From a virus: a DNA stretch of 28,058 nucleotides. The translations under genes and the position numbers were made by a program. Positions 1,621-22,396 of this stretch are shown here, piece by piece. The notes under the pieces are model-generated. The model was not told where the DNA came from. It made no database searches and saw nothing but the letters and a program-made list of their open reading frames with translations. Every line of letters begins with the position of its first letter. Position 1 is the first letter of the stretch. Where the stretch lies: positions 1-28,058 of IMG/VR virus record IMGVR_UViG_3300037189_028204. One strand, given 5' to 3'.

Positions 1621-3288
1621 ATGCTCGCCCAGTCCACGCTCAGGCTCCAACCTCCCAGCGGCTACGGGCAGGCCGCTCGGCTACTCCGCGGGCCGGTCGA
1701 TCCGAAGCTCTCGCCGCCGGCCGAGGCCGCGCCGCCCGTCGACGAGGTCCCCGTGCGTGAGCTGGCCGACGTGACGCGCGGGCTGCCGCTGTCGGACACG
1801 ACGGCCGAGCAGGTCCAGGCGCTCGCCGACTCGGGCCGCCCGCCCTTCGGCCTCAGCCAGGCCGTGCGCGCGCTGCTCACGGCCGACGAGACGCCCGCGC
1901 CGCTGGTGCTCGAGATCACGCGCCGCGCGACGCGCTGGGCGAAGAAGAAGGCAGCCGATGCGCCGAAGACGAAGCGCCCCGCCGTCGGCACGCCCGCCGC
2001 GCTGAACCTGCGCAAGGCCGGTGTGATCAAGGTCGGCCCCCACGGTGGTCAGATCGTCGGCTACGCGCACGGCGACATGACCCGGCCCATCTACGCCGGC
2101 AAGAACGACCACCTCACCCACGCCCACGTCTACCCCACGGGCTCCGGCCCGACGGGCCACGCGGTCGAGGTCCCCGTCCAGGGCGCCCAGGGCCCCTACG
2201 CCTGGGCCGACCACCCGGACATCGCCGGCGGGGCCCCCGCCGTCGTCCACCTGCCCACCGGCCGCACCATCAAGGCCGTGCAGCCAAAGCCGGGCGCCGG
2301 GAGTGCCGGCGAGGTCGCAGCGAAGGCCGTCGCCGAGCTCGGGCAGAATCACGGCGGCAAAGGGCTCGACGCGAGCCCCGGCGGGTTCGTCTCGAAGCCG
2401 GACTACGCCGCCATGCGCGCCGTCATCGAGAAGCACGAGAAGTCCCCGCCCCCGGTGAAGGCGCCGCCGCCAGCCCCCGCGGCGCCCGCCGGCCCGCTCG
2501 ATGGCGATGGCGCGAAGGCGCTTGCGGCACACGTCGCCCAGGCCTCGGGCATGACCCACGACGAGGTGCGCGCGGCGCTCACCGCGACCGACGCCTCGCC
2601 CAAGAACAACGACGTGGCCCAGGCCCGCGCCAAGATCGAAGCGGCGCTTCTGAAAAGTGGCGCCCGCCCGAACGCGCTCGTGGAGCTGCTCGACGGCGGC
2701 CACCACGAGCAGGCCCACGTCGACGCGCGCCTCGACCAGATCGGTTCGGGTGACGTGGCGCGGGCGAAGGCCGAGTACGCGCACACCCCGGTCTACGACC
2801 TCGAGATCCTGACGAGCGTGGACGTGGTCAACGATCACCTGCCCGGTCAGGCCTGGTGCTCCTACGGTCGGAAGCTGACGATGGGCCTGGGGCCCGACGG
2901 CGAGCACGTCACCGGCGACTTCCGCCACGAGCTCGGCCACGCGGTCCGGTTCGCCTGGGGGCCCGGCCCCATGTCGAAGGTCGTCTTCGACCACTACGAC
3001 GCGGCGAAGGCGGCCGAGGCTGCAACCCCGCCCCAGGGCAAGCCCTCGCACGAGTGGTTCGAGACGACCTACGGCGTGATCGGGCGCCGCGCCCTCGACA
3101 GCGCCGAGGAAGACGCGGCCGAGCACTACCGCGGCTACCACCGCGAGGCCCTGCGCCATCGCTTCAAGAAGAACGGCGGCGGTCAGCTCGACACGTACCG
3201 GCAGCGGCACCCGGAGATGGCCGCGCTCTGGGACGCGCGCTACACCGCCGCGCTCCTGGCCAGCCTCGCGCGAAAGGGCTCGTGGTGA
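1621..3288 (+). CDS. Head-cluster multidomain protein with GPHGG module and HExxH zinc-metalloprotease domain
   Basis: Encodes 555 residues from ATG at 1621. The frame is open upstream to 1483, but the leftward promoter occupies that region. Residues about 136-160 carry the shared module (KVGPHGGQIVGYAHGDM..PIYAG). A following region (AVVHLPTGR ... GGFVSKPDYAAMRAVIEKH) matches a region of the kinase protein at 14793-16451. A Pro-rich linker follows, then a C-terminal domain with H436-E-L-G-H440 (RHELGHAVRFAWG) and a downstream acidic stretch SAEEDAAEHYRGY near residue 495, the arrangement of zincin proteases found in phage head proteins and lethal-factor-like toxins. It probably cleaves protein, in the head during assembly or in the host after injection. 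The stop overlaps the next ATG (TGATG). Zincin call moderate; target unknown. Confidence 0.75.
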   Translation: MLAQSTLRLQPPSGYGQAARLLRGPVDPKLSPPAEAAPPVDEVPVRELADVTRGLPLSDTTAEQVQALADSGRPPFGLSQAVRALLTADETPAPLVLEITRRATRWAKKKAADAPKTKRPAVGTPAALNLRKAGVIKVGPHGGQIVGYAHGDMTRPIYAGKNDHLTHAHVYPTGSGPTGHAVEVPVQGAQGPYAWADHPDIAGGAPAVVHLPTGRTIKAVQPKPGAGSAGEVAAKAVAELGQNHGGKGLDASPGGFVSKPDYAAMRAVIEKHEKSPPPVKAPPPAPAAPAGPLDGDGAKALAAHVAQASGMTHDEVRAALTATDASPKNNDVAQARAKIEAALLKSGARPNALVELLDGGHHEQAHVDARLDQIGSGDVARAKAEYAHTPVYDLEILTSVDVVNDHLPGQAWCSYGRKLTMGLGPDGEHVTGDFRHELGHAVRFAWGPGPMSKVVFDHYDAAKAAEAATPPQGKPSHEWFETTYGVIGRRALDSAEEDAAEHYRGYHREALRHRFKKNGGGQLDTYRQRHPEMAALWDARYTAALLASLARKGSW

Positions 3289-5915
3289 TGCGCATCGTGA
3301 ACGAGGCCGGCGCCGTCGTGGCGTCGCGAGACGATCAGGGCCGCATCCACGGCACCGTGCCGCGGGCGCTGCACTGGCTGCGAGACGGCGTACCCGGCCT
3401 GAAGCCGGTGAAGCTGCGCAAGGGCATCGAGGAGCGCGCGGTCACGATCGCCGTGGACGATTCGCTCTACAACCTGGCGCTCGCCGAGGCGTGCGACAAC
3501 GCCGGCTGGACGCTGGAGGACGACGAGATGGCGAAGAACACGACCTTCGAGAAGAGCCAGAACGACGAGGCAGCCGAACTGCTCCGTTCCGCCGGCGGCC
3601 TGCCCACCTCGCAGACCTACGGCACTCCGGCGAAGACCGCGAAGCCTGCCGCAGCGTCGCCGCCCCCAGCCCCGCCGCCCGTGGCTCGCCCGCACCACCA
3701 CCAGGACACGATGCAGCTCCCGACGAAGCCCACGAAGAAGTTCCCGCCGCCGTCGCACCCCAAAGACACGAAGGCCCCGCTCAAGCTCATGTCGACGCCC
3801 GGCGAGATGATGAAGGCCCAGCGCCACGACGCCGACGCGCTGCTGAAGGCCGCGGGCGGGGAGCCCGAGCCCGTACGGCGGTACTCGGTCGCGGCGCCCG
3901 CCGCGAAGAAGGCGGCGAAGAAGCCCGCAGCACCGGCGCAGTCCCCCGATCTCGCGCGCCTCGCCGACCATCACGAGAAGATGGGCAAAATGCACGCGAA
4001 GGCCTACGAAGAGGCCGCAAACGCCGGAGACGGCGAGCTCGCGAAGAAGCACACCGACGCCGAGATGGCCCACCGCGAAGCCGCGACCGCCGCACGCGGA
4101 GGCGGCGGGCCTGCGACGAGCGCCGCCAGCCAGAAGGCGAAGGACGCCACCGAGGCGACGCTCCCGAAGGCCGACGCAGGAAAGGGCAGCCCCGCCGGCA
4201 AGGCCAGCGAGGGCAAGCCCGCAGCGGCGGCCCCGGCCGCAGGCGGCGCCCAGGCGCAGGGTATCGGCGGCCGGTCGAAGGAGGGCCTGAAGGTCATCGC
4301 CATCGGGCCCCGCGGCGGCAAGATCGTCGGCTACACCACCAAGGACGGGAAGCAGAAGGCGATCTACGAGGGCAGCCAGGCCGCGGAGAAGCTCGCCGCC
4401 ACCGTCGCCACGCACGCCGAGCCCCCCAAGGCCGAGCCGGACACGAAGGATGCCGCGGCCCCCACGGCTGCCGCTGGCGACGCAGCCCCCGACGCAGCCG
4501 CAGCCGACGCCCCTGCCCCGGCCGGCAAGGGTGGCGACTACCACCGCGCGAAGCAGGCCGAGCACGCCAAGGCCGCAGCCACCGCCAGCAAGGCCGGCGA
4601 CACGGCCACCGCCGACAAGCACCTCGCCGCCGCGCGCGCACACTGGGACGCGTCGCTCCAGAACGACAAGGGCACGAAGGGCGAGGACGCCGCTGGGGCG
4701 TCGGAGTGGGCGGACGAGGTGTCGGCCAAGGCCGGCCCCGGCGAGGCGGACGACGCTGCCGCCCCTGCGGCCGGAGACGCGACGCCCCCCGCGGCCGGTG
4801 CCTCCGGCGACCAGGGCGCTCCGCCCGCACCGGCCACCCCGAGCGAGCCCATCGACGACAAGCCGTTGTCCCCCGACGAGCCCGCCGGCGGCACGCCCAG
4901 CGACGCCCCGGATCCGGAAGATCTCGGCAGCGCGTCTCCGAAGACGGACTCGCCCGAGTCCCGGCACGCCGAAGAGATCGCGAAGATGCGCGGGCAGGTC
5001 GAGGACGCGCACAAGAAACTCGCTGCCCTCGCCCACCACATCGACGCGAACCTTGTGCCGATGTTCAACAACCTCAAGGGCCAGGCGCGCGCCGCGCACC
5101 GCAACCCCAACCCGTCCGTCGTCGGATGGCTGCTCGCTCAGATCGGGCGCTTCGCCTCGTTCGTGCTGGGCCTGCACGAGGACAAGGGCAAGGTGACCTC
5201 GGCGGCTGATGCCATGAACGGCAAGACGGGCCAGGGCGCCACCGGCACCGACGGCCGGGAGTTCGACATGAACCCCGACGGGTCTTTCACGGAGACCAAG
5301 GACAGCAAGGCGAAGCAGGCCGCCAAAGCCGCCAAGCCCGCCCCAAAGGCGAAGCTGCCCCAGACCCGCATCATCGAGAAGAGCCTCACAGCCAGCGACG
5401 CGGGCGATCTCGAGGGGACGTGCGTCTCGCTGCTGTCCACGCTGCAAGCCATCGAGCGACTGCACCACAGCGCACACCTCCAGGCCCAGGGCCCGGAGGC
5501 CTACTCCGACCATCTGCTCTTCCAGCGCCTCTACACCGACGTCCAGCACGAGATCGACGGACTGTCGGAGAAGATGGTGGCCACGTTCGGGCCGGGCGTC
5601 GTGGACGCCGACGCGCGCGCGGCCGACGCTGCCGAGCTGCTCGACGAGTGGCAGTCGAGCGAAGACAACCCGGTCGAACGAGCCCTCGTCGCGGAGCTGG
5701 AGCTTCAGGACGCCATCTCCGGAGCGCTCACGCAGGACGGTCTGTCGGCCGGCATGGAGAACTTCCTCCAGGGCCTCGCCGACGCCCACGAGACCGCCAT
5801 CTACCTGCTCCAGCAGCGGTTGAGCCCGGCTGTATCGAAGTCCGTGCGCGCCAACACATCCCGGCAGGCCTACGAGGCAGGCGCGCTGCTCAAGTCGGCC
5901 AGCGCTCTCGGGTAG
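3288..5915 (+). CDS. Large Ala/Pro/Lys-rich head-cluster protein with GPRGG module and C-terminal Dps/ferritin-like ferroxidase domain
   Basis: Encodes 875 residues from ATG at 3288 (TGATG overlap). The N-terminal ~85 residues form a small folded region (RIVNEAGAVVASRDDQGRIH) resembling structural proteins. A long low-complexity linker rich in Ala, Pro, Lys and Asp follows, containing the shared module at about 337-365 (IGPRGGKIVGYTT...AIYEGS). Residues about 710-860 look like Dps: HLQAQGPEAYSDH supplies His730 and His742, and HEIDGLSE supplies Asp757 and Glu761. The His-12-His-15-Asp-4-Glu spacing is that of the Dps ferroxidase site (HWN.RG...H, D..AE). The domain may oxidise and bind iron, or bind DNA. 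Lys-rich linkers may bind packaged DNA. Family by eye; domain call fairly confident because four ligands and spacing agree. Confidence 0.78.
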   Translation: MRIVNEAGAVVASRDDQGRIHGTVPRALHWLRDGVPGLKPVKLRKGIEERAVTIAVDDSLYNLALAEACDNAGWTLEDDEMAKNTTFEKSQNDEAAELLRSAGGLPTSQTYGTPAKTAKPAAASPPPAPPPVARPHHHQDTMQLPTKPTKKFPPPSHPKDTKAPLKLMSTPGEMMKAQRHDADALLKAAGGEPEPVRRYSVAAPAAKKAAKKPAAPAQSPDLARLADHHEKMGKMHAKAYEEAANAGDGELAKKHTDAEMAHREAATAARGGGGPATSAASQKAKDATEATLPKADAGKGSPAGKASEGKPAAAAPAAGGAQAQGIGGRSKEGLKVIAIGPRGGKIVGYTTKDGKQKAIYEGSQAAEKLAATVATHAEPPKAEPDTKDAAAPTAAAGDAAPDAAAADAPAPAGKGGDYHRAKQAEHAKAAATASKAGDTATADKHLAAARAHWDASLQNDKGTKGEDAAGASEWADEVSAKAGPGEADDAAAPAAGDATPPAAGASGDQGAPPAPATPSEPIDDKPLSPDEPAGGTPSDAPDPEDLGSASPKTDSPESRHAEEIAKMRGQVEDAHKKLAALAHHIDANLVPMFNNLKGQARAAHRNPNPSVVGWLLAQIGRFASFVLGLHEDKGKVTSAADAMNGKTGQGATGTDGREFDMNPDGSFTETKDSKAKQAAKAAKPAPKAKLPQTRIIEKSLTASDAGDLEGTCVSLLSTLQAIERLHHSAHLQAQGPEAYSDHLLFQRLYTDVQHEIDGLSEKMVATFGPGVVDADARAADAAELLDEWQSSEDNPVERALVAELELQDAISGALTQDGLSAGMENFLQGLADAHETAIYLLQQRLSPAVSKSVRANTSRQAYEAGALLKSASALG

Positions 5916-5960: not shown

Positions 5961-6947
5961 ATGCCCGTGAACGCCGAACAGACCGCCGCCTTCGCCAACC
6001 TGACCAAGTCCTTCATCAGCGCGGACGACACGCGCGATCGGCTGGGGGCGGCCCTGCGCCTGCACCTCGACGTCGCCCCGAAGGACTACTTCTGGATCTG
6101 CGACCACGGCGCGACCGAGGAAGGCCCCGTCGCGATCTACAACCTCGAGCGCGGCAGCGACGGCGACTCCCCGATGAAGGCGATCCCCATCGGTCCCGGC
6201 GAATACTTCCGAATCCCGTTCAAGCTGGAGGCGGGCGTCTACACCTTCGGCGAGCCGGTGAAGGTCCGTCGGAAGACGGACTACGAGGTCGTGCCCACGC
6301 CCGTGCAGAAGAGTCAGACGGCCGGGGCACAGGCCGCGGCGCCCGCTCGGGTTCCCCCGCTCGTCGCGCGCCGCCTGGGCGCCTCGCTGACCGACGAGGA
6401 GCGCGCGTTCGCGAAGTCCCTCCAGGCCTCGCACCTCGCCGCAGCCGAGCGCCAGCCCGACGCCGGGGCGAAGGCCGCGCACGCCGAGGCAGCCGGCCAC
6501 TTCGACGGCGCGTCGCGTACGCTCGACACGCCCGAGTACCGCCGCGAACTCGCCAAGGGCGGCACCGTGGCCGGGCTCATCAAGGCCTGGTCGAACATCC
6601 CCGACGGGCATCGCCCGCCCTTCGCCGACTTCCGCAAGTCGATGGAGCAGCCCACGTCCGCCCGCCTGGGCAACCTCGGCTTCCGTCCGAGCAACGCCAC
6701 CGGCGACGCCCTGGGCGGCCTGAGCAAGGCCTTCGTGGCCGCCCGTCCCGTCGTCGAGCAGCCCACCCCCGTCGCCCCAGAGGCGAGCACCTACAGCGCA
6801 CAGCGCGGGGCCGTGAACGGCATGCGCAAGAGCATGGGCGCCTTCTACGACCGGCTCTCGGCCGGCGCCGCACGCACGCCGCTCGACGTCCGGTTCCCGC
6901 CCGAGGCGAAGGGCCAGACGCCCGCCGCGCAGCCGGAGCGGATCTGA
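5961..6947 (+). CDS. Unknown head-cluster protein upstream of portal (328 aa)
   Basis: Starts at ATG 5961 behind a strong GAGGAG site (5948-5953, spacing seven). The first ~115 residues look folded and beta-rich (DYFWICDHGATEEGPVAIYN, then IPIGPGEYFRIPFKLEAGVY). The remainder is Ala/Pro-rich and probably flexible, with helical patches (LTDEERAFAKSLQASHLAAA). It has five hydrophobic-x-K-S peptides (LTKSF, VQKSQ, FAKSL, FRKSM, MRKSM), a pattern shared with the scaffold-like protein. There is no signal peptide. One base separates it from the portal gene. Family not recognised; its place and composition suggest an internal head or scaffold-associated protein. Confidence 0.75.
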   Translation: MPVNAEQTAAFANLTKSFISADDTRDRLGAALRLHLDVAPKDYFWICDHGATEEGPVAIYNLERGSDGDSPMKAIPIGPGEYFRIPFKLEAGVYTFGEPVKVRRKTDYEVVPTPVQKSQTAGAQAAAPARVPPLVARRLGASLTDEERAFAKSLQASHLAAAERQPDAGAKAAHAEAAGHFDGASRTLDTPEYRRELAKGGTVAGLIKAWSNIPDGHRPPFADFRKSMEQPTSARLGNLGFRPSNATGDALGGLSKAFVAARPVVEQPTPVAPEASTYSAQRGAVNGMRKSMGAFYDRLSAGAARTPLDVRFPPEAKGQTPAAQPERI

Positions 6948-6948: not shown

Positions 6949-8619
6949 ATGAGCAACTGGCAGGCCGCGCTCGCCGAGGGGGTCGCCGGGTTCCTCGGCG
7001 ACCTCAGCAAGGCCGGTCAGGGTTCGCTCGAGCCCGCGGCCGACGCCGGCGCGAACGGCGAGCAGCGCGTATTCGGCCCCGCCGCCCGCGCGCCCGACAG
7101 CCTGCTCTTCGACCCCTACTCCTGGTACTCGGGCAGCCAGGAGTTCCACACCCGGCCGCTCAGCCTGGACTGGAACACGATGCGCCGGATGGCGGCGGCC
7201 CCGCCCATCTCGGCGATCATCAAGCGACGCTGCGAGGACGCCGAGGAGTTCTGCCACCCCGAGGAGAACCCCTACCTCCCCGGCTTCAAGGTGCGCATGC
7301 GCAGCCGCAAGGCCGCGCCATCCCGCGCCGCGCTCCGCATGATCGAAGAGCTGGAGCGCTTCGTCCTCCAGGGCGGCGTCGTCGAGGACATGCGCCAGGT
7401 CCAGGTGCGCGACGACTTCCCCACGTTCGTGAAGAAGGTCGTGCGCGACAGCCTCACCTACGACCAGCTCTGCTTCGAGATCGTGCCGTCGAAGATCTCG
7501 CGCTTCGGTGGCGGCTTCCGACCCGCCCGGTTCATCGCAGCCCCCGCGCACTCCATGCGCATCGCCACGACCTCGCACGACGGCCACGCGCTGCCCGACG
7601 ACGACTTCGAGACCCCCCGCTTCGTGCAGGTCTACGACGAGGTCGTGATCAACGAGTACCGCCCGTCGGAGCTGTGCTTCGGGATCCGCAACCCGCGCTC
7701 CGATCTGGAGTTCTGCGGCTACGGCTACTCCGAGCTGGAGATGCTCGTCACCATCGCGACAGCCTGGCTCAACGCGTTCGAATACAACCGCAGGTTCTTT
7801 TCTCAGGGCGCCGGCATCCCCGGCATCCTGAACTTGAAGGGCCAGGTGGTGAACGAGCGCATCATGCGGGCGTTCAAGCGCGAGCTCCAGATGCTCGCCA
7901 CCGGCGCCCAGAACGCGCACCGCATCCCCGTGACCTCGGCCGAGGGCATGGAGTTCATCAACCTCCACTCCACCAACCGGGAGATGGAGTACAGCGCGTG
8001 GATGGACCTGCTGACGAAGCTCGCCTGCGCGCTCTACAGCATGGATCCCGCCGAGATCGGCTTCAACTTCGGCAACACCGGACAGCAGAGCAGCATGGGC
8101 TCGGCCAACCAGGTCGAGAAGATCGGCGAGTCCCGCGAGCGCGGCCTCAAGCCGCTGATCCGTTTCCTGTTCTCGCAGCTCAACCGCTTCGTGATCTGGC
8201 AGATCGACCCGGACTTCGAGATCGTCGCGCAGGGCCTCCGGTCGAACAGCGAGTCTGATGACCTGGAGCTCGACGCGAAGCGCGCCGCGACCTACATGAC
8301 CGTCGACCAGATCCGGGCGCGCTACGACATGCCCGCCATGGAGGACGGCAAGGGCAAGTGCATCCTCAACGCGACCTGGCTCCAGTTCCAGGCGGCCGCG
8401 CAGGGCGAGCAGGACGGCGCTGGCGAACAGATCCCGCCCATGGACACGGCCGATCTGTTCTCCGCCCCGCAGCCGCCCGCCGGTGGCCCTCCGCAGGGTG
8501 TTGGCACGCCGCCCGGTGGCGTGGTACAGGACCAGAGCCAGGCGGCAGGACAACCGCTCGCCGCTTCGATGACAGCCCGGCAGGTTCGCCGGCCCAAAGT
8601 GAGCAGCTTCACGCTGTAA
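6949..8619 (+). CDS. Portal protein
   Basis: Encodes 556 residues from ATG at 6949, one base after the previous stop. Portal features include the N-terminal helix-rich region after WNTMRRMAAAPPISAIIKRR, the central AAPAHSMRIATTSHDGHALP and FIRNPRSDL-type segment (here LCFGIRNPRSDLEFCGYGYS) followed by ELEMLVTIATAWLNAFEYN, and the G.GIPGILNLKG stretch typical of HK97-family portals. Twelve copies would form the ring at the capsid vertex through which DNA is packaged and ejected. The C-terminus (PPAGGPPQGVGTPPGGVV) is Pro/Gly-rich and flexible, as is common. The portal lies about 16 kb from the capsid gene, with the effector-like genes between them. Confidence 0.9.
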   Translation: MSNWQAALAEGVAGFLGDLSKAGQGSLEPAADAGANGEQRVFGPAARAPDSLLFDPYSWYSGSQEFHTRPLSLDWNTMRRMAAAPPISAIIKRRCEDAEEFCHPEENPYLPGFKVRMRSRKAAPSRAALRMIEELERFVLQGGVVEDMRQVQVRDDFPTFVKKVVRDSLTYDQLCFEIVPSKISRFGGGFRPARFIAAPAHSMRIATTSHDGHALPDDDFETPRFVQVYDEVVINEYRPSELCFGIRNPRSDLEFCGYGYSELEMLVTIATAWLNAFEYNRRFFSQGAGIPGILNLKGQVVNERIMRAFKRELQMLATGAQNAHRIPVTSAEGMEFINLHSTNREMEYSAWMDLLTKLACALYSMDPAEIGFNFGNTGQQSSMGSANQVEKIGESRERGLKPLIRFLFSQLNRFVIWQIDPDFEIVAQGLRSNSESDDLELDAKRAATYMTVDQIRARYDMPAMEDGKGKCILNATWLQFQAAAQGEQDGAGEQIPPMDTADLFSAPQPPAGGPPQGVGTPPGGVVQDQSQAAGQPLAASMTARQVRRPKVSSFTL

Positions 8620-8630
8620 GGAGCCCCCAG

Positions 8631-9095: not shown

Positions 9096-9168
9096 GTTCA
9101 TCGAGGGCCTGGGCACCGCCTGAACCGCGGGCCCGGCCGGGGGCGCACGGAGGCCCGAAGGCGACAAC

Positions 9169-9958: not shown

Positions 9959-9968
9959 CGCACCGCGC

Positions 9969-13891: not shown

Positions 13892-14793
13892 TGGCGCGCC
13901 CGCTCAACCCCGACGAACTCGCGAAGGTCAAGGACCTCATCCGGCAGAACTTCGTCGTGCTGGCGATCCGGCTGTACGGCGCCGACTCGATCCCGAAGGA
14001 ACTGCTCGACGAGGCGGTCGCCGCAGGCAAGATCACGCAGGCGATGATCGACTCCCTTGGCCGGGGGGCCGCCGGCAACGCATACCTTCTCGGCTACGAG
14101 CAGCACGCGCACCCCGCCCAGGTCGCCAACGTCCGACCCGAGGAGTTCGAGCAGCGCGCCGATCGCATCCACGACGACCTGTCGGACTGGGAGCGGCGGA
14201 TGGCGAAGCAGGCGCGCATGAAGGGGGCGCAGCTCATCGTGGGCCTGGGCAACGAGGTGGCCGACGACTTCACCACGACGGTCATCAACTCCGACAACGA
14301 GCAGGCCCGCGAGGCCCGTCGGGTGATCGCCGAGGAGACGGCCAGCGCCATCGAGGCGCGGGAGTCGTGGCGCCGGCTGCGCGGCACCCTGGGCGAGAAG
14401 CTCGGCGAGGACTGGGCGCGCGATCTACACCGCATCGCCGCGACCGAGATCCAGGCGGCGGTGAACGCGGGCATCGCCGACGCCATCGAGGAAGACGAGG
14501 GGCACGAGGCCCTGGTGGCGGTGATCCCCAACCCGGACGCATGCGAGGTCTGCCTCGGCTTCTACACCCGCGCCGGAAAACCGCGGATCTTCAAGCTCGC
14601 CGACCTGCCGCCGCATGGGGTCAATCACAAGAAGCCGAAGTCGCAGTGGGTGCCGTGTCTGCCTCCAAGTCATCCGTTTTGCGCGTGTAGTCTTACAGCG
14701 GTTCCCGACGGCTGGACCTTCGACGACGACTGGGTGTTGCGTCCCCCGCCGACCGCGCCGGTCATCCCGCAGCAGATCTCCGAGGATCTGTGA
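13891..14793 (+). CDS. Minor head protein, SPP1 gp7/Mu gpF-like (phage head morphogenesis)
   Basis: Encodes 300 residues from ATG 13891 (TGATG overlap). Residues about 180-200 (DLHRIAATEIQAAVNAGIAD) correspond to the conserved A.TE...A.N.G helix of head morphogenesis proteins. The C-terminal zinc-like cluster follows: NPDACEVCLGF near residue 215, then PKSQWVPCLPPSHPFCACSL, the usual HP.C.C ending. In SPP1 gp7 binds the portal and aids DNA delivery, while gpF of Mu acts in head assembly. In other phages this family is often fused to toxin or ADP-ribosyltransferase domains; here the fused-type domains sit in separate downstream genes. Confidence 0.85.
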   Translation: MARPLNPDELAKVKDLIRQNFVVLAIRLYGADSIPKELLDEAVAAGKITQAMIDSLGRGAAGNAYLLGYEQHAHPAQVANVRPEEFEQRADRIHDDLSDWERRMAKQARMKGAQLIVGLGNEVADDFTTTVINSDNEQAREARRVIAEETASAIEARESWRRLRGTLGEKLGEDWARDLHRIAATEIQAAVNAGIADAIEEDEGHEALVAVIPNPDACEVCLGFYTRAGKPRIFKLADLPPHGVNHKKPKSQWVPCLPPSHPFCACSLTAVPDGWTFDDDWVLRPPPTAPVIPQQISEDL

Positions 14794-16451
14794 TGCTCCG
14801 CCTGCTCATCGTCCCGCCCGCTCCGCTGAGAAAGTCCGACCCGAAGCCCCCGCCCGGCTTCCACGCGGCTCCCGGATCGAAGCACGGCGGTTGGACGGAC
14901 GGGCAGGGGCGCTACTGGTATCCGGGGCATGTGGGGCAGGTGCAGGCGGTGCCGCCCGGCAAGGGCGCCGCGGAGGCGCTGGACGTCCACGGTTCGGGCC
15001 CGGCCGGCAGCGTCTTCGCGATCAGTTCGCACCCGGCCGTGGCGCAGCCGAAGCGCACGGCGCTCGTCCACCTGCCCACGGGGCGCGTGCTCGGGCAGAT
15101 CCAGGGCCAGTCCGCGGCGATGTCCGCGGTCGAGGCGCTGCACGACAAGCACTCGGAGTTCGGCGCCGACAAGGCCGTCGGCGGGTTCCTCGACGCGAAG
15201 GACTACGCGTCGGCGAAGAGCACGATCGCCACGGCGACCGCGGCGCCCCACGTCTCGATGCCGAAGAAGCAGCCCACGGCAGCGCCCGCGTCAGCGCCGC
15301 CCCCGGTCGCCGCTGAGCCTGCGTCGCCGGCGACGATGACCAAGGTGGGCGACAAGCCGGGCGGGGCGTCCCCCGGATCCGTCGTCGCCATCACCGGGCG
15401 GTCGGGCAACTGGCTGCTCAAGCCCGAGGGGCCCGTCAAGGTCACGGCCGAGGCGGCGGGCTCGCAGCTCGCGGCCCTGGTGCTCGGGGCCGGCAACGTG
15501 AACGTGGCGGAGGTGGTCCCGCTCGAGGGCGTGGCCGACGAGCTCGCGCACGGGTTCACCCAGGGCACCGTGCAGCAGATGATGCCCCACGCGGGCGCGC
15601 TGCCGAAGTCGGGGCCCGGCCTCGCCGCGCTCAGCCACGACGACCACGCCGAGCTGCTGGCCTCACACGTTGCGAACTGGCTCGTGGCGGATCACGACGC
15701 CCACGGCGGGCAGTACCTCCGCAAGCCCGACGGGAACGGGCTGCTCAAGATCGACTTCGCGCAGGCCTTCAAACATCTGGGCGACGACAAGCTCGACACG
15801 AGCTACCACCCCAACGCGAAGTTCGGCGAGGCGCAGCCAGCGCCGATCCAGGTGATGGCCGCGTTCGAGGCGGGCAAGATCCCGCTCGACTTCAACGACC
15901 CCCGCATTTTGAAGGCGGTCGAGGCGGCCGAGGCCATCCCCGACGCCACCATCGAGCAGCTCGTTAAGCCCTACGCCGACGCTTCGTCCCAGGCGTTCGG
16001 CAAGTCGGCGGCCGGCATCGTGGCCGCGGTCGTCGCCCGGAAGAAGAGCGTCCGCGCCGACTTCGAGGACTGGTTCTCGCGCGCGCTGACGAAGCGCATG
16101 GGCCAGCCCATCGCGTTCAAGTTCGGGGCACCGCCGGTGGCGAAGTCGTTCCGCTTCACCTTCGCGGCCGGGCTGCTGAAGGCGACCCGCGAGACGGGCG
16201 TGGCACCGCTGCCCGAGGATGCGATCGTGGCCGAGGACGGCAGCCTCACCGAACGGGGCGAGGACCTGCTCGAGTCGTTCGCGCGCCTGGTGCAGTCGCG
16301 CCATCCCGACGCCCCGACCAACCGGGCGGCCGTGGCCCTGGACGACGATCTGGGCCCGGTGCTCCAGCGCCTCGCCCTGGCGGGCGACATCGTGGACGAC
16401 GTGTTGTCCGACGTCTCGGCGCGCCGCGCCGTGGGGAGGATCGCGGCATGA
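14793..16451 (+). CDS. PI3/4-kinase/HipA-fold kinase-like head-cluster protein
   Basis: Encodes 552 residues from ATG 14793 (TGATG overlap; a GTG at 14790 is immediately upstream). N-terminus MLRLLIVPPAPLRKSD resembles the start of the 1289-residue protein. GSKHGGWTDGQGRYWYPG near residue 30 is a diverged relative of the GPxGG module. Residues about 90-150 share AL(V)VHLPTGR...GGFLDAKDYASAK with the metalloprotease. From about 195 a kinase fold follows: GNWLLK210P (ATP-binding Lys), AD300HDAH304GGQ307YL (catalytic loop; canonical D.H..N has Asn where Gln stands) and KID321FAQAF (metal-binding Asp). It may phosphorylate a protein or lipid in the infected host. The Asn-to-Gln change may reduce activity. 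Confidence 0.75.
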   Translation: MLRLLIVPPAPLRKSDPKPPPGFHAAPGSKHGGWTDGQGRYWYPGHVGQVQAVPPGKGAAEALDVHGSGPAGSVFAISSHPAVAQPKRTALVHLPTGRVLGQIQGQSAAMSAVEALHDKHSEFGADKAVGGFLDAKDYASAKSTIATATAAPHVSMPKKQPTAAPASAPPPVAAEPASPATMTKVGDKPGGASPGSVVAITGRSGNWLLKPEGPVKVTAEAAGSQLAALVLGAGNVNVAEVVPLEGVADELAHGFTQGTVQQMMPHAGALPKSGPGLAALSHDDHAELLASHVANWLVADHDAHGGQYLRKPDGNGLLKIDFAQAFKHLGDDKLDTSYHPNAKFGEAQPAPIQVMAAFEAGKIPLDFNDPRILKAVEAAEAIPDATIEQLVKPYADASSQAFGKSAAGIVAAVVARKKSVRADFEDWFSRALTKRMGQPIAFKFGAPPVAKSFRFTFAAGLLKATRETGVAPLPEDAIVAEDGSLTERGEDLLESFARLVQSRHPDAPTNRAAVALDDDLGPVLQRLALAGDIVDDVLSDVSARRAVGRIAA

Positions 16452-16642
16452 AGGTGTTCGACGACGACGGCATGTTCACGCCCGAGGCGGAGGCGCTCGT
16501 GCGGAAGTACGCGGCCGCGGTCGTCGAAGGCGACGACGACGATCGGTCGGAAGCGCGTGACGCGGCGCCCGAGCCGGTGCGCCACGTCCTCGACGATCTC
16601 GACGTCTCGATGGCCCTGGCCCTGTACCTCGCGGAGGTGTGA
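16448..16642 (+). CDS. Small acidic protein (64 aa)
   Basis: ATG 16448 overlaps the kinase gene stop (ATGA), and its own TGA overlaps the next start (TGATG). The product is strongly acidic (DDDGMFTPEAEALVRKY, EGDDDDRSEARD) with a hydrophobic C-terminal helix (VSMALALYLAEV). Unknown; possibly an accessory or antidote-like partner of the adjacent large proteins, but nothing in the sequence proves this. Confidence 0.6.
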   Translation: MKVFDDDGMFTPEAEALVRKYAAAVVEGDDDDRSEARDAAPEPVRHVLDDLDVSMALALYLAEV

Positions 16643-19600
16643 TGTTCCGGCTGCTGCTGCCCACCGGCCTCCAGAAGTCGAGCGGGAAGCTCGGCGTGAT
16701 CGCCATCGGCCCGAAGGGCGGTCAGATCGTGGGGTACGCCCACGGCGACATGAAGAAGCCCATCTACGCGGGATCGGCGGCCGCGGCGAAGCTGGCGCAG
16801 GCCCAGGGGCACAAGGGCGAGGCGGCGGCCGGGACGTTCGGCCTGGCCGAGTGGCTCGACGCGCTCACCAGCAACTATGGCCTCGCGGTGCAGCACCACG
16901 CCGGCGACGCGGCAACCATCACCAGCCCGACGACTCCGCACGCGATCGTGCTCGCGCAGGCCTCCATGCCGGGGGCGCACTTCGGCGCGCTCCAGGAGAC
17001 GGCGAGCGGCTGGGCTGCGACGGCCACGTTCAAGCCGGGCACCAAGGACGAAGCGGCCGCGGGCGGCAAGCAGTCGCTGGTGCATCAGGGCGGGCTGAAG
17101 CCGCCGGGCTGGCCGGACAGCGTCCCGCCGCCGGGCACGGTCATCAAACGCTCGGCCGGTGGTCACACCTACCTGCTGACGATCTCGGCGGGCGCCGACG
17201 GGAAGACGCCGCGCTACCTCGTGACCGCGCCGCCCGGCGCCCCGCTGTTCGCCTTCACCTCGACGGCCCAGGGCGGCATCGTCAAGGGCACGATCGGGCA
17301 CCCGGATCTGTCGGTCACGGTGGCGTTCGACACGCACACCGCCGCGGCGGTGGCCATCGTCGGCCCGAAGGTCTCGGCCGAGGGCGTCGGGCAGATCAAA
17401 TGCACCTCGGGCCCGAACTGGTGGGGCTGGTGGGCCGAGGCGGGCAAGACCGCGCCGATCTCCACGGCGGCCGGGCAGGACACGCCCCCGGACTGGCTGG
17501 CGAAGCAGCCGGAGACGGGCGTGCTGACGCCGGATGCGGCGCTCTCCAGCGGCGTCTTCGGCAAGGTTTGGCCGTCCGGCGTTGCCCCCGCGTCGCCAGC
17601 CCCCGCCGATCTGCCGCCCCCCGAGCCCGTTGCAGATCTCCCGCCCGCGCCCGAGTCGCTCTCGCCGCCGGCGAAGCCGTGGCCGGATGGCGCGGCTCCC
17701 GTCGGTGGCTCGCACACCTTCGGGCTCCACGGCCACCAGGTCAGCGTCGAGGTGGTGGACGCAGGCGTCGCGCCCGGCTACGTCGTGACGGTGCCATCCG
17801 ATCCGGCGGACGTGGGGCACTTCTACGGCTCCCTCGAGGACCTCAAGCTGCACCTCGACGCGGTGGCCGGTGGTGAGCCGGAGTCGGATGGGAGCCTGCC
17901 GACGTTCCTGACGGGTGAGCAGATCCAGGCGGCGCTCGGCGGCGCCCCGGCCCCGGCGGAGGAACCGGCTGCGCCGGCCGCGCCCGAGCCGGAGCCCGCG
18001 GTGCCGTCGCCACCTTCGCCCGAACCTCCACCCGCGGCGGGCCCAGCCGCCCACCCAGGCTGGTCGAAGCTGCCGTCCGGTGTGTCGCACGGGTTCAGCT
18101 CGCAGAAGGCGCTGAAGCCCGGCAAGGCCCCGGAGAACAAGGGCAAGCTGGCGGTGCTGACGGTGGTGTCGGGCGCCGACGGCGCGCCGAAGTACCAGGT
18201 CACGCTCCCCGAGGGCGGGGCGCTCTACAACGACCCGGACACGGGCAAGCTGATGCCCGCCCCGAAGGTGTTGGCGCCCGGCGAGAGCGCAACGTTCTCC
18301 AGCTCCACGACGGCGGCCGAGGCGCTGATGAACGCCCCGAGCACGGGGTTCATCTTCTGGGGAATGAAGCCGGGGAAGTCTGGGAAGCTGGAGGCTGTGG
18401 TCCTGCCGCCGGCAGCCCCGCCGCCGTCTGCGCCCCCGGTGCCGCCCCCGGCGGAGGCATCGCCCATCACCACCCCGGAGCCGACCCCCGAGCCCGAGCC
18501 CGAGATCCCCGCGGCGCCTGCGCCCCCCGCGAAGAAGAAGTCGAAGAAGAAGGCCGCGGTCGAGCCCCCCGCCGCCGCCACCGCGAAGCCGAGCGGGTGG
18601 GCGGCCTGGCTGGCGAAGCACCCCGGCACAGCGACGTCCGAGTGGCTCGACGAAGCCCCGGCCGGCACGGCCATCCCGGCGGTCGGTGGTGGCCACGTAT
18701 GGAAGTCGGTGGCCGGCGGCTGGGTGGACACCAGCGGCGCGCCCGCATCTCCGGATCTGACCTCGGCCACCCCGGACGGGATCGCGGCTGCCGAGGGCGT
18801 GGGCCCCGACGGCATGAAGCACGCGACCGGGACGAAGTTCGTCTGGGCGTCGACCTCGAAGACCGCCGGCTCGGAGCTCTACAACGACCTGCTCAAGGCG
18901 TTCCCCGGCGCCATCATGGAGGCGAACACGCAGACGGCGAAGGGCGTGCCGCTGCCGCCGAACGTCTACAAGGTGCAGTTCCCGCTCACGCTGCTCCCGT
19001 CGAGCGTGGACGCCTCGGACAAGGCCGCGGTGAAGGCCTACGTCGAGGGCGTGGTCCTGCCGCTGCTGCCGAAGTACGGGTTCAAGCCCTTCACGAAGGA
19101 GCTGTGCAACCACGTCGGCGGCACGAACGCCTTCGCGAACATCACGGGCGACGCGGACGCGATCGTCGCGGTCGAGACCAGCATGCAGGCGATCCCGCCG
19201 GCTGCCACCGGCACGAACGCCCACATGCTGCACGACGAGGCGATGTTCTCGGCGGGCACGCCATGGCACGGCCACGGCATCGACCTCGACGGTGGGCTCA
19301 TCCGCGATCAGTACGCCTCGGTGACGAAGCGAAAGGGCGGTGCCCGCGAGGTTCGGTTCAAGCTGACGCCCTGGGGGGCCGCGGCCGTTGGTGCGAAGCT
19401 CGCCGGTGCTCCGGCGGGGGCGTGGGACCTGGGCGGCGGAAACTTCGACCCCAAGGCGGGCGAGGTGGACGCCATCGGCCTCGTGCATCACACCACGCCG
19501 ACGAAGGTGCTCTCCGGGCCGGGCTGGACGGCGCACTTCTCCACCGACTCCACCTGGGCGATGCAGCACGCGGTCAAGGTCGACGTGGAGCCCGGCAACC

Positions 19601-20511
19601 CCGTGGCGGCCGCGATGGCGGAACTCGCCGAGCAGCTCGGCATGCCGCAGATCGCGGTGCCCCCCGGCGACGAAGACCGCGAGCACATGAAGCTGCGCAA
19701 GCTGCTCTGGAACGTCTCGCCGAAGAAGCACAACGAGCTGTTCGGCAAGCTGGGCGACACGCCGTCCCCGCCCCCGAGCAGCGCAGATCTGCGCGTCGCG
19801 CTGAAGGCCGCCGGCCTGCCCCTGGAGCAAATCGACAAGGCCGAGGTCGTGTCCATCGGCTCCGGGCACCGCACCGTGCGGATTCAGGACGGACAGTCCT
19901 TCATCGACAAGGGCATCCACGGCCTCTACCACAACTGGTACTCGAGCGACGCGAAGGACCTGGCACGCAAGCTGGCCTCGGGCGGCAACGTGGCGACGGC
20001 GCAGCGCTGGAAGACGGGCATGGGCGGGTACGGGCAGTCGTCGCCGTCGGACATGGCCAGCGGCGGCGCGGACTACGTGTTCCACTACGCCTTCCGGGCC
20101 GACAAGGACTCGGCCTTCTCCGGGCTCAGCGCGGGGCATGGCCTGCACATCGTCACGGGCGCCGAGACGCTCGAGCGAGCGGACTGGCACTCGTGCCCGC
20201 ACGACAACTATGGCAGCACGATCAACGACAGCTTCTCGGACCGGAAGCCGCGAGCGACCGCGCTGAACACGCACAAGGCCGGCTCGGGCGAGGTCATGGT
20301 GCAAAACCAGGTGGCTCTCGATGACATCCGGGCCATCGTCTGCAACACGGCGAAAAAGCGGCAGGACGCGATCTCCGAGTTCAAGTCGCTGGGCGTACAC
20401 ACCATCGGCGGTCGCCCGGTCGAGGAAGTCGTGGTAACCTCACACGCTGAGGCCGGGGCGCTTGTGAAGGCGTCCTGGGCCGCGACGATCCAGGCCAGGA
20501 GCCAGCCGTGA
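16642..20511 (+). CDS. Giant multidomain head-cluster protein with GPKGG module, beta repeats and toxin-like C-terminus
   Basis: Encodes 1289 residues; ATG 16642 (GGAGG at 16633-16637) is preferred over the GTG at 16639. The shared module is at residues 22-40 (IGPKGGQIVGYAHGDMKKPI, then YAGS). Three related beta segments follow near residues 183, 370 and 510 (GADGKTPRYLVTAPPG, APGYVVTVPSDPADVGHFYG, GADGAPKYQVTLPEGG), joined by long Pro/Ala/Glu linkers with a KKKSKKK patch. The C-terminal ~170 residues (GNVATAQRWKTGMGGYGQSS, ASGGADYVFHYAFR, SGEVMVQNQVALDDIRAIV) resemble toxin/ADP-ribosyltransferase-like ends of phage head-associated proteins from memory, with EVMV as candidate Glu strand; this is tentative. 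Likely a virion-packaged effector. Confidence 0.75.
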   Translation: MFRLLLPTGLQKSSGKLGVIAIGPKGGQIVGYAHGDMKKPIYAGSAAAAKLAQAQGHKGEAAAGTFGLAEWLDALTSNYGLAVQHHAGDAATITSPTTPHAIVLAQASMPGAHFGALQETASGWAATATFKPGTKDEAAAGGKQSLVHQGGLKPPGWPDSVPPPGTVIKRSAGGHTYLLTISAGADGKTPRYLVTAPPGAPLFAFTSTAQGGIVKGTIGHPDLSVTVAFDTHTAAAVAIVGPKVSAEGVGQIKCTSGPNWWGWWAEAGKTAPISTAAGQDTPPDWLAKQPETGVLTPDAALSSGVFGKVWPSGVAPASPAPADLPPPEPVADLPPAPESLSPPAKPWPDGAAPVGGSHTFGLHGHQVSVEVVDAGVAPGYVVTVPSDPADVGHFYGSLEDLKLHLDAVAGGEPESDGSLPTFLTGEQIQAALGGAPAPAEEPAAPAAPEPEPAVPSPPSPEPPPAAGPAAHPGWSKLPSGVSHGFSSQKALKPGKAPENKGKLAVLTVVSGADGAPKYQVTLPEGGALYNDPDTGKLMPAPKVLAPGESATFSSSTTAAEALMNAPSTGFIFWGMKPGKSGKLEAVVLPPAAPPPSAPPVPPPAEASPITTPEPTPEPEPEIPAAPAPPAKKKSKKKAAVEPPAAATAKPSGWAAWLAKHPGTATSEWLDEAPAGTAIPAVGGGHVWKSVAGGWVDTSGAPASPDLTSATPDGIAAAEGVGPDGMKHATGTKFVWASTSKTAGSELYNDLLKAFPGAIMEANTQTAKGVPLPPNVYKVQFPLTLLPSSVDASDKAAVKAYVEGVVLPLLPKYGFKPFTKELCNHVGGTNAFANITGDADAIVAVETSMQAIPPAATGTNAHMLHDEAMFSAGTPWHGHGIDLDGGLIRDQYASVTKRKGGAREVRFKLTPWGAAAVGAKLAGAPAGAWDLGGGNFDPKAGEVDAIGLVHHTTPTKVLSGPGWTAHFSTDSTWAMQHAVKVDVEPGNPVAAAMAELAEQLGMPQIAVPPGDEDREHMKLRKLLWNVSPKKHNELFGKLGDTPSPPPSSADLRVALKAAGLPLEQIDKAEVVSIGSGHRTVRIQDGQSFIDKGIHGLYHNWYSSDAKDLARKLASGGNVATAQRWKTGMGGYGQSSPSDMASGGADYVFHYAFRADKDSAFSGLSAGHGLHIVTGAETLERADWHSCPHDNYGSTINDSFSDRKPRATALNTHKAGSGEVMVQNQVALDDIRAIVCNTAKKRQDAISEFKSLGVHTIGGRPVEEVVVTSHAEAGALVKASWAATIQARSQP

Positions 20512-20918
20512 TCACAGCCAAGCCCCAGCACGCCGCGCTGAACGCCGCCCTCGCCGCCCACCGCCTGTGGGTCATCGAGGGACTGCCGCTCGGCCCGATG
20601 GTGGCGATCTCGCCCCAGGCCGGCAGCCTCGACGGTGGCGACACGCCCGAGCCGCACCCGGACGTCGACAGGGATCACCTCGTCTTCTGCGACGGCGGCC
20701 GCGACCGCAACCCGATGTGCGAGGGGCTGGCGCTGGCGGAGGGCTGCGTCACGTTCACCGCGCCGCACTGGGCAGGCGAGGTCGCGCTGAAGCTGCGGCC
20801 CCTCGATCTGGCGCTGGCGAAGCAGATGGGCATGAAGCCGAGCGGCATCGACCTGGTCGACCTGGAGCCCGGCGTCACCGAGCACGAGGACGTCTTCGAC
20901 GGGCTGTTCCCGCGGTGA
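20508..20918 (+). CDS. Unknown 136-aa protein
   Basis: Starts at 20508 with ATGA-type overlap (GTGATCACA: GTG start sharing the TGA of the giant gene) and ends overlapping the next GTG (GTGA). Residues include LWVIEGLPLGPMVAISPQAG and LALAEGCVTFTAPHWAGEVA, a compact globular protein with no export signal. The last third (DLVDLEPGVTEHEDVFDGLF) is acidic. No family recognised. Tight coupling on both sides suggests it works with one of the two neighbouring large proteins, perhaps as chaperone or immunity partner, which is inference. Confidence 0.7.
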   Translation: MITAKPQHAALNAALAAHRLWVIEGLPLGPMVAISPQAGSLDGGDTPEPHPDVDRDHLVFCDGGRDRNPMCEGLALAEGCVTFTAPHWAGEVALKLRPLDLALAKQMGMKPSGIDLVDLEPGVTEHEDVFDGLFPR

Positions 20919-22396
20919 GCCAGGCGGTCGTCAAGATCGGCCCCCACGGCGGCAAGATCGTGGGCTTCCACAACGGCAAGCCCATCTACCTGAGCGAGGG
21001 CACAGCACCGGGCGGCACGCACGACTCGGCCGCAGCCGCCCACGGGTCACCAGCGCACGCCGCGCAGATCGCGGGGCTCCAGGTGGGCACGCACCCCACG
21101 CAGCACGACATGGTGCAGGTGGCCTGGAAGCCGGCGAGCGCCGCGGGCGCTTCGTGGCTGTCGACGCACCCGCTGCCCGAGGGCGCGCGGCATGTGTCGA
21201 CCCCTGCGGCCAGCATCGCGCTGGTCCCGAAGTCATGGGCGCATGCCCCTGCGACCCCGCCAGCCCTGGCCGCAGCCGGCGTCGAGGCCGTGGACAAGGC
21301 CACGCTGAAGAACCCCGTGACGAAGTGGGTCGACTCCCCCCGGCACCCGGTCACCGTGAACGGCGTCGCCGGCGAGCTCGTCGGCTGGGAGGTCACGGGC
21401 GCGCCGCCGCAGAAGACCGGGCGGCTGGTGGTGATGACGCCGGGCCCGAGCCGCCTGGGCGGCATCCTGGCGGCCTACGACCAGGACCAGGTCACGCCGA
21501 CGAAGGCCGAGGCGCACGCGCCGTGGCAGGGTGAGCGCGTGCGCGTCTGGAAGTCCGCCGCGGCGACCGAGGTGGTCAACAAGCTCCTGGCCGGCGCGGC
21601 GCCTGGCCTGGGCGGCAAGACGCGCATGCAGGTCATCGAGGCGCTTCAGAGCGGCGGGATCCCGACCTACCCGATGGGTGGGTTCGTGCGCGACGCGCTC
21701 CAGGGCAAGGACTCGAAGGACATCGACCTGAGCATGGGCGGCGACTGGACCGAGATCGTGTCGGTCGCCTCGAAGAAGAAGATCGCCTACACGCCGCCGG
21801 GCGGCGGAGGCCTCGTCTCGTTCGGGAAGAAGGACGGCACCGGCCCGCCGCTGGAGGGCAAGGCCATCATGGGCCTCAACGCCGATCGCCACGCGCTCGC
21901 CCCGTCCGCTCCCGTCACCACGGACGCGGACCTCGAGGCCGAGTGCATCTACGGCGACTTCACCTCGGGCCGGCTCTGGTACGACACGGTCAACGAGACG
22001 ATCATCGACCCCACGGGCCACGGCGTCGAGGACGCGCTCAACCATGTGTTGCGCATCCCCGTACCGAAGGAGCAGTGGGGCGACTGGGCAGCAGGCAGCC
22101 CGGACAAGATCTGGCGCTACTGGAAGTTCACCGCGCGCGACGAAAAGCCCGCCGACGAGGAGACACGGCAGTTCTTCATCTCGAAGGCGCAGGAAGTGTT
22201 CGCACCCGGCGCGTCGGTCTGGACCGCGCCGCACAACCTGCGCGTGCGCCTCCAGAAGGGCGTGCTCGACGGAGACTTCGGCAGCGCCGGTCAGGTGAAG
22301 CTCGACGCGTTCAAGACCGCGGTGGTGTCTGATCTGGGCGAGGCGTTCTGGGACGCGCACTGGAAGCCGCACGTCCCCCACGGCATGAAGGGGTGA
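20915..22396 (+). CDS. CCA-adding enzyme/poly(A) polymerase-like nucleotidyltransferase with N-terminal GPHGG module
   Basis: Encodes 493 residues from GTG 20915. The shared module is the very N-terminus (VVKIGPHGGKIVGFHNGKPI, then Y). After a linker domain, residues 253-272 read PMGGFVRDALQGKDSKDIDL, the class II nucleotidyltransferase signature (GG.VRD.L.G....D.D.) with D269 and D271 as metal ligands. Further CCA-enzyme-like motifs follow in order: GDFTSGRLWYD (348-), ETIIDPTGHGVEDALNHVLR (361-) and IWRYWKFTAR (398-). Such enzymes add CCA or A-tails to RNA 3' ends. The canonical RRD..N.A residues are changed to YGD..SGRL, so substrate choice may differ. It may act on tRNA or mRNA of the host after injection. 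Confidence 0.8.
   Translation: MSQAVVKIGPHGGKIVGFHNGKPIYLSEGTAPGGTHDSAAAAHGSPAHAAQIAGLQVGTHPTQHDMVQVAWKPASAAGASWLSTHPLPEGARHVSTPAASIALVPKSWAHAPATPPALAAAGVEAVDKATLKNPVTKWVDSPRHPVTVNGVAGELVGWEVTGAPPQKTGRLVVMTPGPSRLGGILAAYDQDQVTPTKAEAHAPWQGERVRVWKSAAATEVVNKLLAGAAPGLGGKTRMQVIEALQSGGIPTYPMGGFVRDALQGKDSKDIDLSMGGDWTEIVSVASKKKIAYTPPGGGGLVSFGKKDGTGPPLEGKAIMGLNADRHALAPSAPVTTDADLEAECIYGDFTSGRLWYDTVNETIIDPTGHGVEDALNHVLRIPVPKEQWGDWAAGSPDKIWRYWKFTARDEKPADEETRQFFISKAQEVFAPGASVWTAPHNLRVRLQKGVLDGDFGSAGQVKLDAFKTAVVSDLGEAFWDAHWKPHVPHGMKG

Follow-up and report, generated by a model that had tools for sequence, protein, structure and literature searches.

What could the same short peptide module be doing in four or five otherwise different proteins that a single phage encodes around its portal and capsid genes? 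The question is raised by a 28,058-nucleotide stretch of viral DNA (IMG/VR record IMGVR_UViG_3300037189_028204, positions 1 to 28,058), referred to here as the window, in which a GPxGG-type module is joined to zincin-like, Dps-like, ADP-ribosyltransferase (ART)-like and nucleotidyltransferase domains and, in a diverged version, to a kinase domain. The original prediction, made from the letters of the window alone, regarded these proteins as a modular arsenal of virion-packaged effectors that share a targeting, cleavage or ejection tag. Our follow-up shows that the module is real, lies near the portal, is attached to diverse enzymes in some proteins and adjoins a cleavage-like site, but the predicted placement of the genes is wrong for two of the five, the notion of an arsenal belonging to a single phage is unsupported and the claim of novelty was too strong. 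On balance, we favour reading the module as a protease-trimmed capsid-cargo tag of accessory proteins in the head gene cluster, and we infer its cleavage, packaging, ejection and host function from sequence.

Four proteins of the window carry the predicted pattern IGP[RHK]GG[KQ]IVG[YF]..PIY: the zincin-like protein (residues 135–160), the Dps-like protein (337–363), the 1289-residue ART-like protein (19–44) and the nucleotidyltransferase protein (5–25). A six-frame scan of the window locates the core GP[RHK]GG[KQ]IVG[YF] at exactly four sites – 2035, 4305, 16708 and 20939 – and nowhere else. The similarity between the modules goes beyond chance, since the six pairs yield pairwise BLASTP E values from 9e-10 (zincin-like versus ART-like, the best pair) to 0.004. 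The near-identity that had been noticed for this best pair is genuine: both proteins share GYAHGDM(TR/KK)PIYAG, and 53 of 66 bases are identical at the DNA level. The diverged copy assigned to the kinase protein fared less well: the segment GSKHGGWTDGQGRYWYPG is present at residues 29–46, but the module hidden Markov model (HMM) does not recover it. The corresponding pattern, form C (KPPxGFx(2-8)G[ST]K), is found in four open reading frames (ORFs; the window kinase, L052, L097 and L099); it is the pattern that ties form C to the other forms of the module, and kinship is not proven. We also detected a second shared region that had been missed, in which residues 164–276 of the zincin-like protein align with residues 47–153 of the kinase protein, a stretch of about 110 residues that follows the module (E 8e-8).

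The module is widespread in uncultivated phages, where it comes in three larger forms: form A, to which the four window copies belong (GPRGGKIVGY..PIYAG), form B (GEGSRGGKVIGHTxSGKPIYE) and form D (IGPRGGKWADPxHTIPW). The window region is contained, with a 26-base shift, in a 78.9-kb contig of the same phage (IMGVR_UViG_3300032330_002408; L001/G001) with a 100% identical portal, and no further form A/B match was found in this contig beyond the window's four proteins. Across the loci searched, the iterated HMM recovered 162 form A/B domains in 116 ORFs; removal of near-duplicates left 99 ORFs with 133 modules and a maximum of five per ORF (L063).

A short motif, [LIVMF]xK[SAG], stands on one side of these modules. 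In the 125 of the 133 modules with [RKH]GG present and at least 25 residues upstream, the motif is found within 16 residues upstream in 101, as compared to 15% at random positions in the same proteins; for form D the corresponding figures are 127 of 138 and 10%. When counted from a slightly different anchor, and only for modules with room on both sides, the upstream 16 residues hold the motif in 107/132 (A/B) and 110/135 (D) cases, against means of 14.1 and 15.8 in shuffled upstream sequences, and the downstream 16 residues hold it in none (0/132 and 0/135). The 'cleavage' element of the predicted tag thereby gains a predicted site just upstream of the module.

We read [LIVMF]xK[SAG] as a putative recognition site of the prohead protease because a matching site is found at the expected maturation point of the capsid protein. 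Among 26 capsid ORFs (28 rows less two that lack the N-terminus; some are close relatives), [LI]xK[AS] is present near the N-terminus in 25, at an identical profile offset in 24 and four residues later in L122; L120 is without it. The capsid protein of HK97 fits the same motif: its mature chain starts at S104, right after FNK (FNK|S), and the tetrapeptide [LIVMF]xK[SA] is found in this protein at positions 7, 50, 85 and 101 only (4 versus 1.1 expected). In the phage of the window, an excess of [LIVMF]xK[SA] is seen in the scaffold-like protein (8 versus 1.15 expected), the head maturation protease (5 versus 0.58), the protein encoded at 5961–6947 (7 versus 0.64), the kinase (6 versus 1.7), the Dps-like protein (7 versus 2.6) and the nucleotidyltransferase (4 versus 1.2). 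The remainder of the genome, for which gene calls are based on GC content at third codon positions and include some doubtful ORFs, is unenriched overall (23 versus 19.8).

Could the module be serving the protease and nothing else? It would then be a docking or spacing element, a cleavable linker within head polyproteins, and packaging would be set elsewhere, for example by MuF, scaffold or zincin regions. The tight one-sided link between module and motif is what such a linker would produce; domain borders would account for copies that are internal or repeated (as many as five per ORF), and forms A/B and D occur together in eight ORFs. However, the protease would have no need of the module, given that capsid and scaffold-like proteins have the site and no module; some modules, moreover, lack an upstream site. 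We consider this explanation unlikely, if deserving of attention.

The position of the module in the genomes bears on the cargo-tag reading as well. We sought modules in 59 of 77 contigs and PF04860 portals in the 49 of these that are at least 20 kb long; a portal was found in 40, over the cut-off in 38. Dropping near-duplicates (G014, G023 and G050) and contigs under 30 kb left 34, and excluding G001 and G003, which had been found through their portals, left 32. In these 32 contigs the module is on the portal strand in 79 of 79 cases, which is weak evidence alone because phage genomes are often strand-biased, and it lies within 5 kb of the portal in 20 contigs, whereas 5000 random circular shifts give 7.0 such contigs on average and never more than 16. 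The suggestion that an HMM of the modules would find them near portal genes is thus largely borne out: they share the portal strand and are often close. In the window itself, the claim that all five genes lie between portal and capsid is incorrect, as the zincin-like (1621–3288) and Dps-like (3288–5915) genes are upstream of the portal gene (6949–8619), leaving three of five in between. When ORFs were classed by local iterative HMMs, the module was carried by 0/49 portal, 0/35 capsid, 2/27 protease and 1/46 MuF ORFs.

Several PHROG labels that would have placed the module in portal proteins were rejected. The local portal HMM gives no module ORF better than E 0.25; all three phrog_15528 'portal' matches fall on NUDIX domains (L089, L049 and L063); and the phrog_2662 match at L054 covers profile positions 440–715, overlapping a phrog_2468 'head morphogenesis' match, and not the portal part. 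This covers all such labels but one, a phrog_859 'portal' match that was not traced.

Comparison with a close relative, G002, shows that part of the set is dispensable. The G002 portal is 81% identical to that of the window (tblastn; 83% in the best segment), and gene order is kept from the 5961–6947 protein, whose G002 homologue has a form D module, through the capsid gene and past it. Nothing in G002 matches the kinase, ART, 136-residue and nucleotidyltransferase genes (14793–22396) at E 1e-5: L002:9959 is the last position of the MuF match, and 9972 the first of a 154-residue ORF over the next conserved gene. Since this block is absent from the close relative, we treat it as an accessory cassette; the G002 contig ends before the region where the zincin-like and Dps-like genes would lie. 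In seven other loci (L012–L018), ORFs of 1937–2468 residues have one form A module close to the N-terminus. Each of the seven matches the window kinase (E 3e-19 to 1e-7), and five (L012, L013, L016, L017 and L018) match the window ART at the C-terminus (E 8e-11 to 2e-5); the L014 and L015 ORFs are cut off by the end of their contigs. The window has one gene for each activity: the ART gene carries a form A module, the kinase gene the form C recognised by pattern. That the module is kept in both fused and split arrangements suggests that the putative tag goes with each delivered polypeptide.

How firm are the enzymes themselves? The nucleotidyltransferase guess is supported by a Pfam match and the kinase by homology together with the fold of a homologue; the Dps-like domain has weak PHROG support (Table 1), and the zincin and ART are less firm. 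The zincin-like protein has a HELGH motif and no Pfam match; its residues 305–555 share 42% identity with the C-terminal end of a 1682-residue L013 protein (E 1e-44). An AlphaFold2 model of the module-linker-kinase segment of L015, computed from nine sequences including the window kinase, reaches a predicted local distance difference test (pLDDT) score of 83.6. The module is modelled as a hairpin (strands 21–26 and 29–32) followed by helices, and the kinase part resembles PI4KII-alpha (Z 14.5) and CtkA (Z 14.4), with support from a Foldseek search. Residues H264, D265 and D283 are invariant in all nine kinase rows. The model of the ART is of low confidence (pLDDT 59.5); in a Foldseek search with it, DarT or DarTG chains fill the first eight places, but the best E is 3.7e-3 and none is at or below 0.001. 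We hold the ART fold less firmly than that of the kinase, and take its fold matches as support only.

In the wider collection, we scanned 90 module ORFs of up to 1500 residues (from the 99, and including four that duplicate ORFs of the window) against Pfam. The matches include NUDIX (4), DUF5661 (4), DUF2924 (3), InPase (2), S-adenosylmethionine (SAM) lyase (2), mCpol (1), MuF (1) and PolyA_pol (1), among others, the single PolyA_pol match being of the window nucleotidyltransferase type; PHROGs add a head maturation protease in two (L050 and L076). The attached domains range, in some copies, over NUDIX, pyrophosphatase, CRISPR-polymerase-like, SAM-lyase-like, kinase, DarT-like and zincin-like types. 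Three are combined in a 931-residue L089 protein (9917–12709), where the module (residues 27–50) is followed by NUDIX (160–277) and mCpol (minimal CRISPR polymerase; 431–543) domains and by a SAM-lyase-like stretch (807–893, under the curated cut-off), making it a candidate multi-target counter-defence protein. In L011 and L017, it is the InPase domain that draws the PHROG labels of DarB-like antirestriction protein, endolysin and minor head protein (phrog_4660); these were not counted as further domains. Three module ORFs of L011 (G005; 7097–9127, 12409–13977 and 14220–16733) share an extra segment of about 70 residues that overlaps DUF2924 or DUF4357 matches, so the module is not their only common part. 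Form B modules (e.g. L063:4219–7989) often precede a His-rich segment, FTxxDHxDAxxxH.

An explanation without any cargo deserves weighing here: module proteins may be ordinary structural or morphogenesis proteins, or late morons that never enter the virion, with their location reflecting late transcription. In its favour, the majority of the scanned module proteins show no recognised enzyme, a small number are fusions to protease or MuF sequences, and phage genes often share a strand and an operon. Against it, the capsid-type site is enriched in these proteins and not in the remainder of the genome; some of them have recognisable enzyme domains, and the cassette is dispensable. We judge this explanation improbable.

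The cargo-tag reading draws its support from the one-sidedness of the site, the proximity to the portal, the enrichment of the site in head-region proteins, the cassette and the attached enzymes. According to this model, the module would be a tag of about 25 residues, folded as a beta-hairpin, on accessory 'cargo' proteins of the head gene cluster. Cargo precursors would join the scaffold core of the prohead, where the prohead protease would cut after the lysine of [LIVMF]xK[SAG]. Single proteins would thereby be trimmed and long multidomain ones divided into units, and the hairpin would stay near the new N-terminus of each unit. The kinase, the DarT-like ART, the nucleotidyltransferase, the zincin and the Dps-like protein could then pass into the host together with the DNA and there weaken defences or reprogramme the host cell. 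A bolder version, which we put forward tentatively and would not quite bet on, is that uncultivated phages of a large and so far undescribed group share one standard label (the [LIVMF]xK|[SAG] site plus a GxxGG hairpin), by which any kind of enzyme can be brought into the capsid – kinases, DNA-directed ARTs, NUDIX hydrolases, SAM lyases and CRISPR-polymerase-like proteins – with polyproteins cut into hairpin-handled weapons, the hairpin serving storage or ejection, and cassettes swapped in the head operon. If true, a simple sequence label would predict the head-carried proteins of many uncultivated phages and expose early, counter-defence and host-modifying enzymes overlooked by annotation; HK97-type maturation sites would serve in cargo processing too, and phage capsids could be loaded with foreign proteins by means of a short tag.

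A number of observations pull the other way. Two of the five window copies, in the Dps-like and nucleotidyltransferase proteins, have no site just upstream. Site numbers are not clearly enriched in the zincin-like (2 versus 1.35 expected), ART-like (5 versus 3.5), portal (1 versus 0.7), MuF-like (0 versus 0.5) and capsid (2 versus 0.9) proteins, and one replication-side protein has 5 sites versus 1.3 expected. For the protease the likeness to HK97 is weak, the window protein matching gp4 at a BLASTP E of 0.053. The window kinase has Q in place of the catalytic-loop N of the other eight rows, and may thus be inactive or altered. In 8 of the 34 contigs the nearest module is 16–87 kb from the portal in linear coordinates (about 80–87 kb in G022, G029 and G045; 16–34 kb in G018, G025, G031, G044 and G052), although the G029 module sits in an ORF with a MuF-type domain (L054) and so still adjoins a head gene despite its distance from the portal. 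No PF04860 portal was found in 9 of the 49 contigs, including G051, which holds the NUDIX-mCpol protein. The module is not purely an enzyme mark either, given that it is carried by two protease ORFs and, with L054 as a further case, by at least two MuF-type ORFs. When 29 distinct module ORFs were scanned singly, a Pfam match of any kind was found in 11 and an enzyme domain in 6: the predicted diversity of C-terminal enzymes is there, but it is true for a minority, and many module proteins may be structural or internal proteins. The counts above take in related phages and are not independent. Finally, cultured phages yielded no convincing copy: in tblastn searches of 50,697 phage records, three queries made from the module drew 3, 0 and 1 weak matches.

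The spread of the module was established by pattern scans of IMG/VR followed by confirmation. With the window modules as queries, 30 pattern stretches came up and 10 were confirmed; the portal relative G003 gave six sister-form matches at E up to 1. The form B scan confirmed 83 of 107 stretches, a form A scan with more members 18 of 30 and the form D scan 116 of 155; later analyses use the best 80 of the 83 form B and the best 80 of the 116 form D stretches. With this distribution, the idea of a single phage's arsenal marked by the module is unsupported. Two scans of bacterial genomes (84,980 prokaryote species), run for forms other than D and at a threshold that may hide weak relatives, returned 21 and 15 pattern stretches, none of them confirmed. 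Among cultured phages, Planktothrix and Synechococcus phage matches were followed up, and a Pag-Yong1 protein with a weak score and without the GG core was not counted; a form D match at E 4 was not accepted. The whole zincin-like protein has no match among cultured phages, and the matches listed for the nucleotidyltransferase protein cover its nucleotidyltransferase region only, not the module. Module peptides have no good family match in Pfam (best E 0.22) or PHROGs (best E 0.01). No earlier description of the module came to light: five of its peptide strings were absent from the literature text searched, a search to which sequence printed only in figures is invisible, and text searches on virion-packaged effectors and on Pag-Yong1 were fruitless as well. 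The CdiA toxin chain 7m5f_C matches 14 profile positions with GKIVGYQGAGAGRPIYE (E 0.0025) and lacks the GPxGG part; this is probably a coincidence or a distant hairpin.

Table 1. Features of the window discussed in the text.
Feature	Position	Strand	Basis or remark
P0001, module protein with C-terminal zincin-like domain	1621..3288	+	ORF; HELGH at 2926–2940
Module copy 1, form A (P0001)	2014..2106	+	LRKA 6–9 residues upstream of GP
P0002, module protein with C-terminal Dps-like domain (about 5424–5816)	3288..5915	+	phrog_3636 E 8e-5; phrog_858 E 2e-4
Module copy 2, form A, internal (P0002)	4281..4379	+	without [LIVMF]xK[SA] just upstream
Head-region protein	5961..6947	+	enriched in [LIVMF]xK[SA]; L002 homologue has form D module
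Portal protein	6949..8619	+	PF04860 E 4e-15; PHROG E 6e-39
MuF-like minor head protein, weak	13891..14793	+	phrog_595 E 1e-4; PF04233 just 0.12
Accessory cassette: kinase, ART, small ORF, nucleotidyltransferase	14793..22396	+	absent at the same spot in close relative G002
P0003, HipA/PI4K-type kinase with diverged form C module at N-terminus	14793..16451	+	homology; fold of homologous domain
Form C module GSKHGGWTDGQGRYWYPG (P0003)	14874..14927	+	pattern only
P0004, 1289 residues, N-terminal module, C-terminal DarT-like ART fold (19519–20508)	16642..20511	+	homology; low-confidence model
Module copy 3, form A (P0004)	16684..16776	+	LQKS upstream
136-residue ORF in cassette, without module or Pfam match	20508..20918	+	Pfam scan
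P0005, N-terminal module and tRNA-nucleotidyltransferase/poly(A)-polymerase head domain (about 21668–22054)	20915..22396	+	PF01743 E 7e-6; phrog_2244 E 4e-6
Module copy 4, form A (P0005)	20918..21001	+	N-terminus of ORF as called
Head maturation protease	22984..23811	+	phrog_1028 E 1e-35; HK97 gp4 (see text)
Scaffold-like protein	23799..24551	+	name from position only; enriched in [LIVMF]xK[SA]
Major capsid protein	24588..26033	+	phrog_752 E 4e-78
LNKA, predicted capsid maturation site	24687..24698	+	[LI]xK[AS] there in 25/26 capsid ORFs

The phage is likely contractile-tailed, as judged by an 846-residue protein in the remainder of G001 that looks like a tail sheath from its sequence, though not through a database match. 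Between the portal and capsid genes, the window also encodes a DnaQ-like 3'-5' exonuclease (10500–11378, plus strand; PF00929 E 5.5e-24), kept in G002, and a small response-regulator receiver-like ORF (13233–13595, plus strand; PF00072 E 0.0013, under the curated cut-off), which is unexpected in a head/lysis region. Both the window and the 78.9-kb contig start within a 24-bp tandem repeat (window 1–87), an 8-residue repeat that ends a protein encoded at 1–636 on the minus strand; this start is probably an assembly break. The same protein has a DUF7666 match slightly under the cut-off.

How does the system relate to those already described? The statement that no described system matches it was too strong: polyvalent phage proteins (PMC5512222) and T4 capsid-targeting sequences (PMC5694885), as presented in the portions of these papers used here, are close in logic. 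The algal virus PBCV-1 offers a further parallel. Its kinases A278L and A282L combine the kinase with a basic adaptor domain (PF08789), and both have been reported from virions and from the set of proteins associated with the DNA (PMC3281028), so that there, too, a small element sits on kinases. That the module is likewise a nucleic-acid- or core-binding adaptor keeping enzymes on the packaged DNA would suit the kinases and the Dps-like domain found here, but it is very improbable, as the module is, by eye, only mildly basic and PF08789 matched none of 20 module contigs. We also rejected the PBCV-1 adaptor as a homologue, as these contigs gave no PF08789 match at E up to 10 and neither did 24 module peptides scanned singly.

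Polyvalent proteins join zincin, ART, kinase, InPase and other domains, and are predicted to be packaged and injected (PMC5512222, available text). Our set resembles them in the joining of kinase and ART in five of the seven L012–L018 proteins, in the NUDIX, mCpol and SAM-lyase-like domains of L089 and in the proximity to head genes. It differs in that each window protein has one recognised enzyme domain, so that several activities are present only in the window proteins as a set. Of the catalogued polyvalent domains (InPase, LPD, ArdC, DdrB and others), Pfam finds InPase in 2 of the 90 module ORFs and none in the five window proteins. The available text of the polyvalent account describes no shared short hairpin with an adjoining prohead-protease site, attributing processing mainly to zincin domains, and names the HYD2 clade of ARTs (PMC5512222); the window ART appears instead to be DarT-like.

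In T4, a short N-terminal element with a prohead-protease site marks proteins that are loaded into the head and ejected (PMC5694885, in the part available), and the module resembles it in that a predicted prohead-protease site adjoins a conserved element. The geometry, however, is reversed: the T4 and SPN3US signals lie upstream of the cut and are removed (PMC5694885), whereas the module lies downstream of the predicted cut and would stay. Instead of a signal within the removed propeptide, we find the predicted site upstream of the module in the 107/132 and 110/135 cases given above and downstream in none. Module copies can also be internal and repeated, unlike the N-terminal element of T4. 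T4 prohead-protease sites end in E. The sites of phiKZ and 201phi2-1 end in E as well (SQE; PMC5694885, same portion), in contrast to [LIVMF]xK[SAG] here. Seen against these systems, the proposed cargo tag would merge two known ideas: polyvalent effectors, as outlined in PMC5512222, and capsid targeting with trimming, as outlined in PMC5694885.

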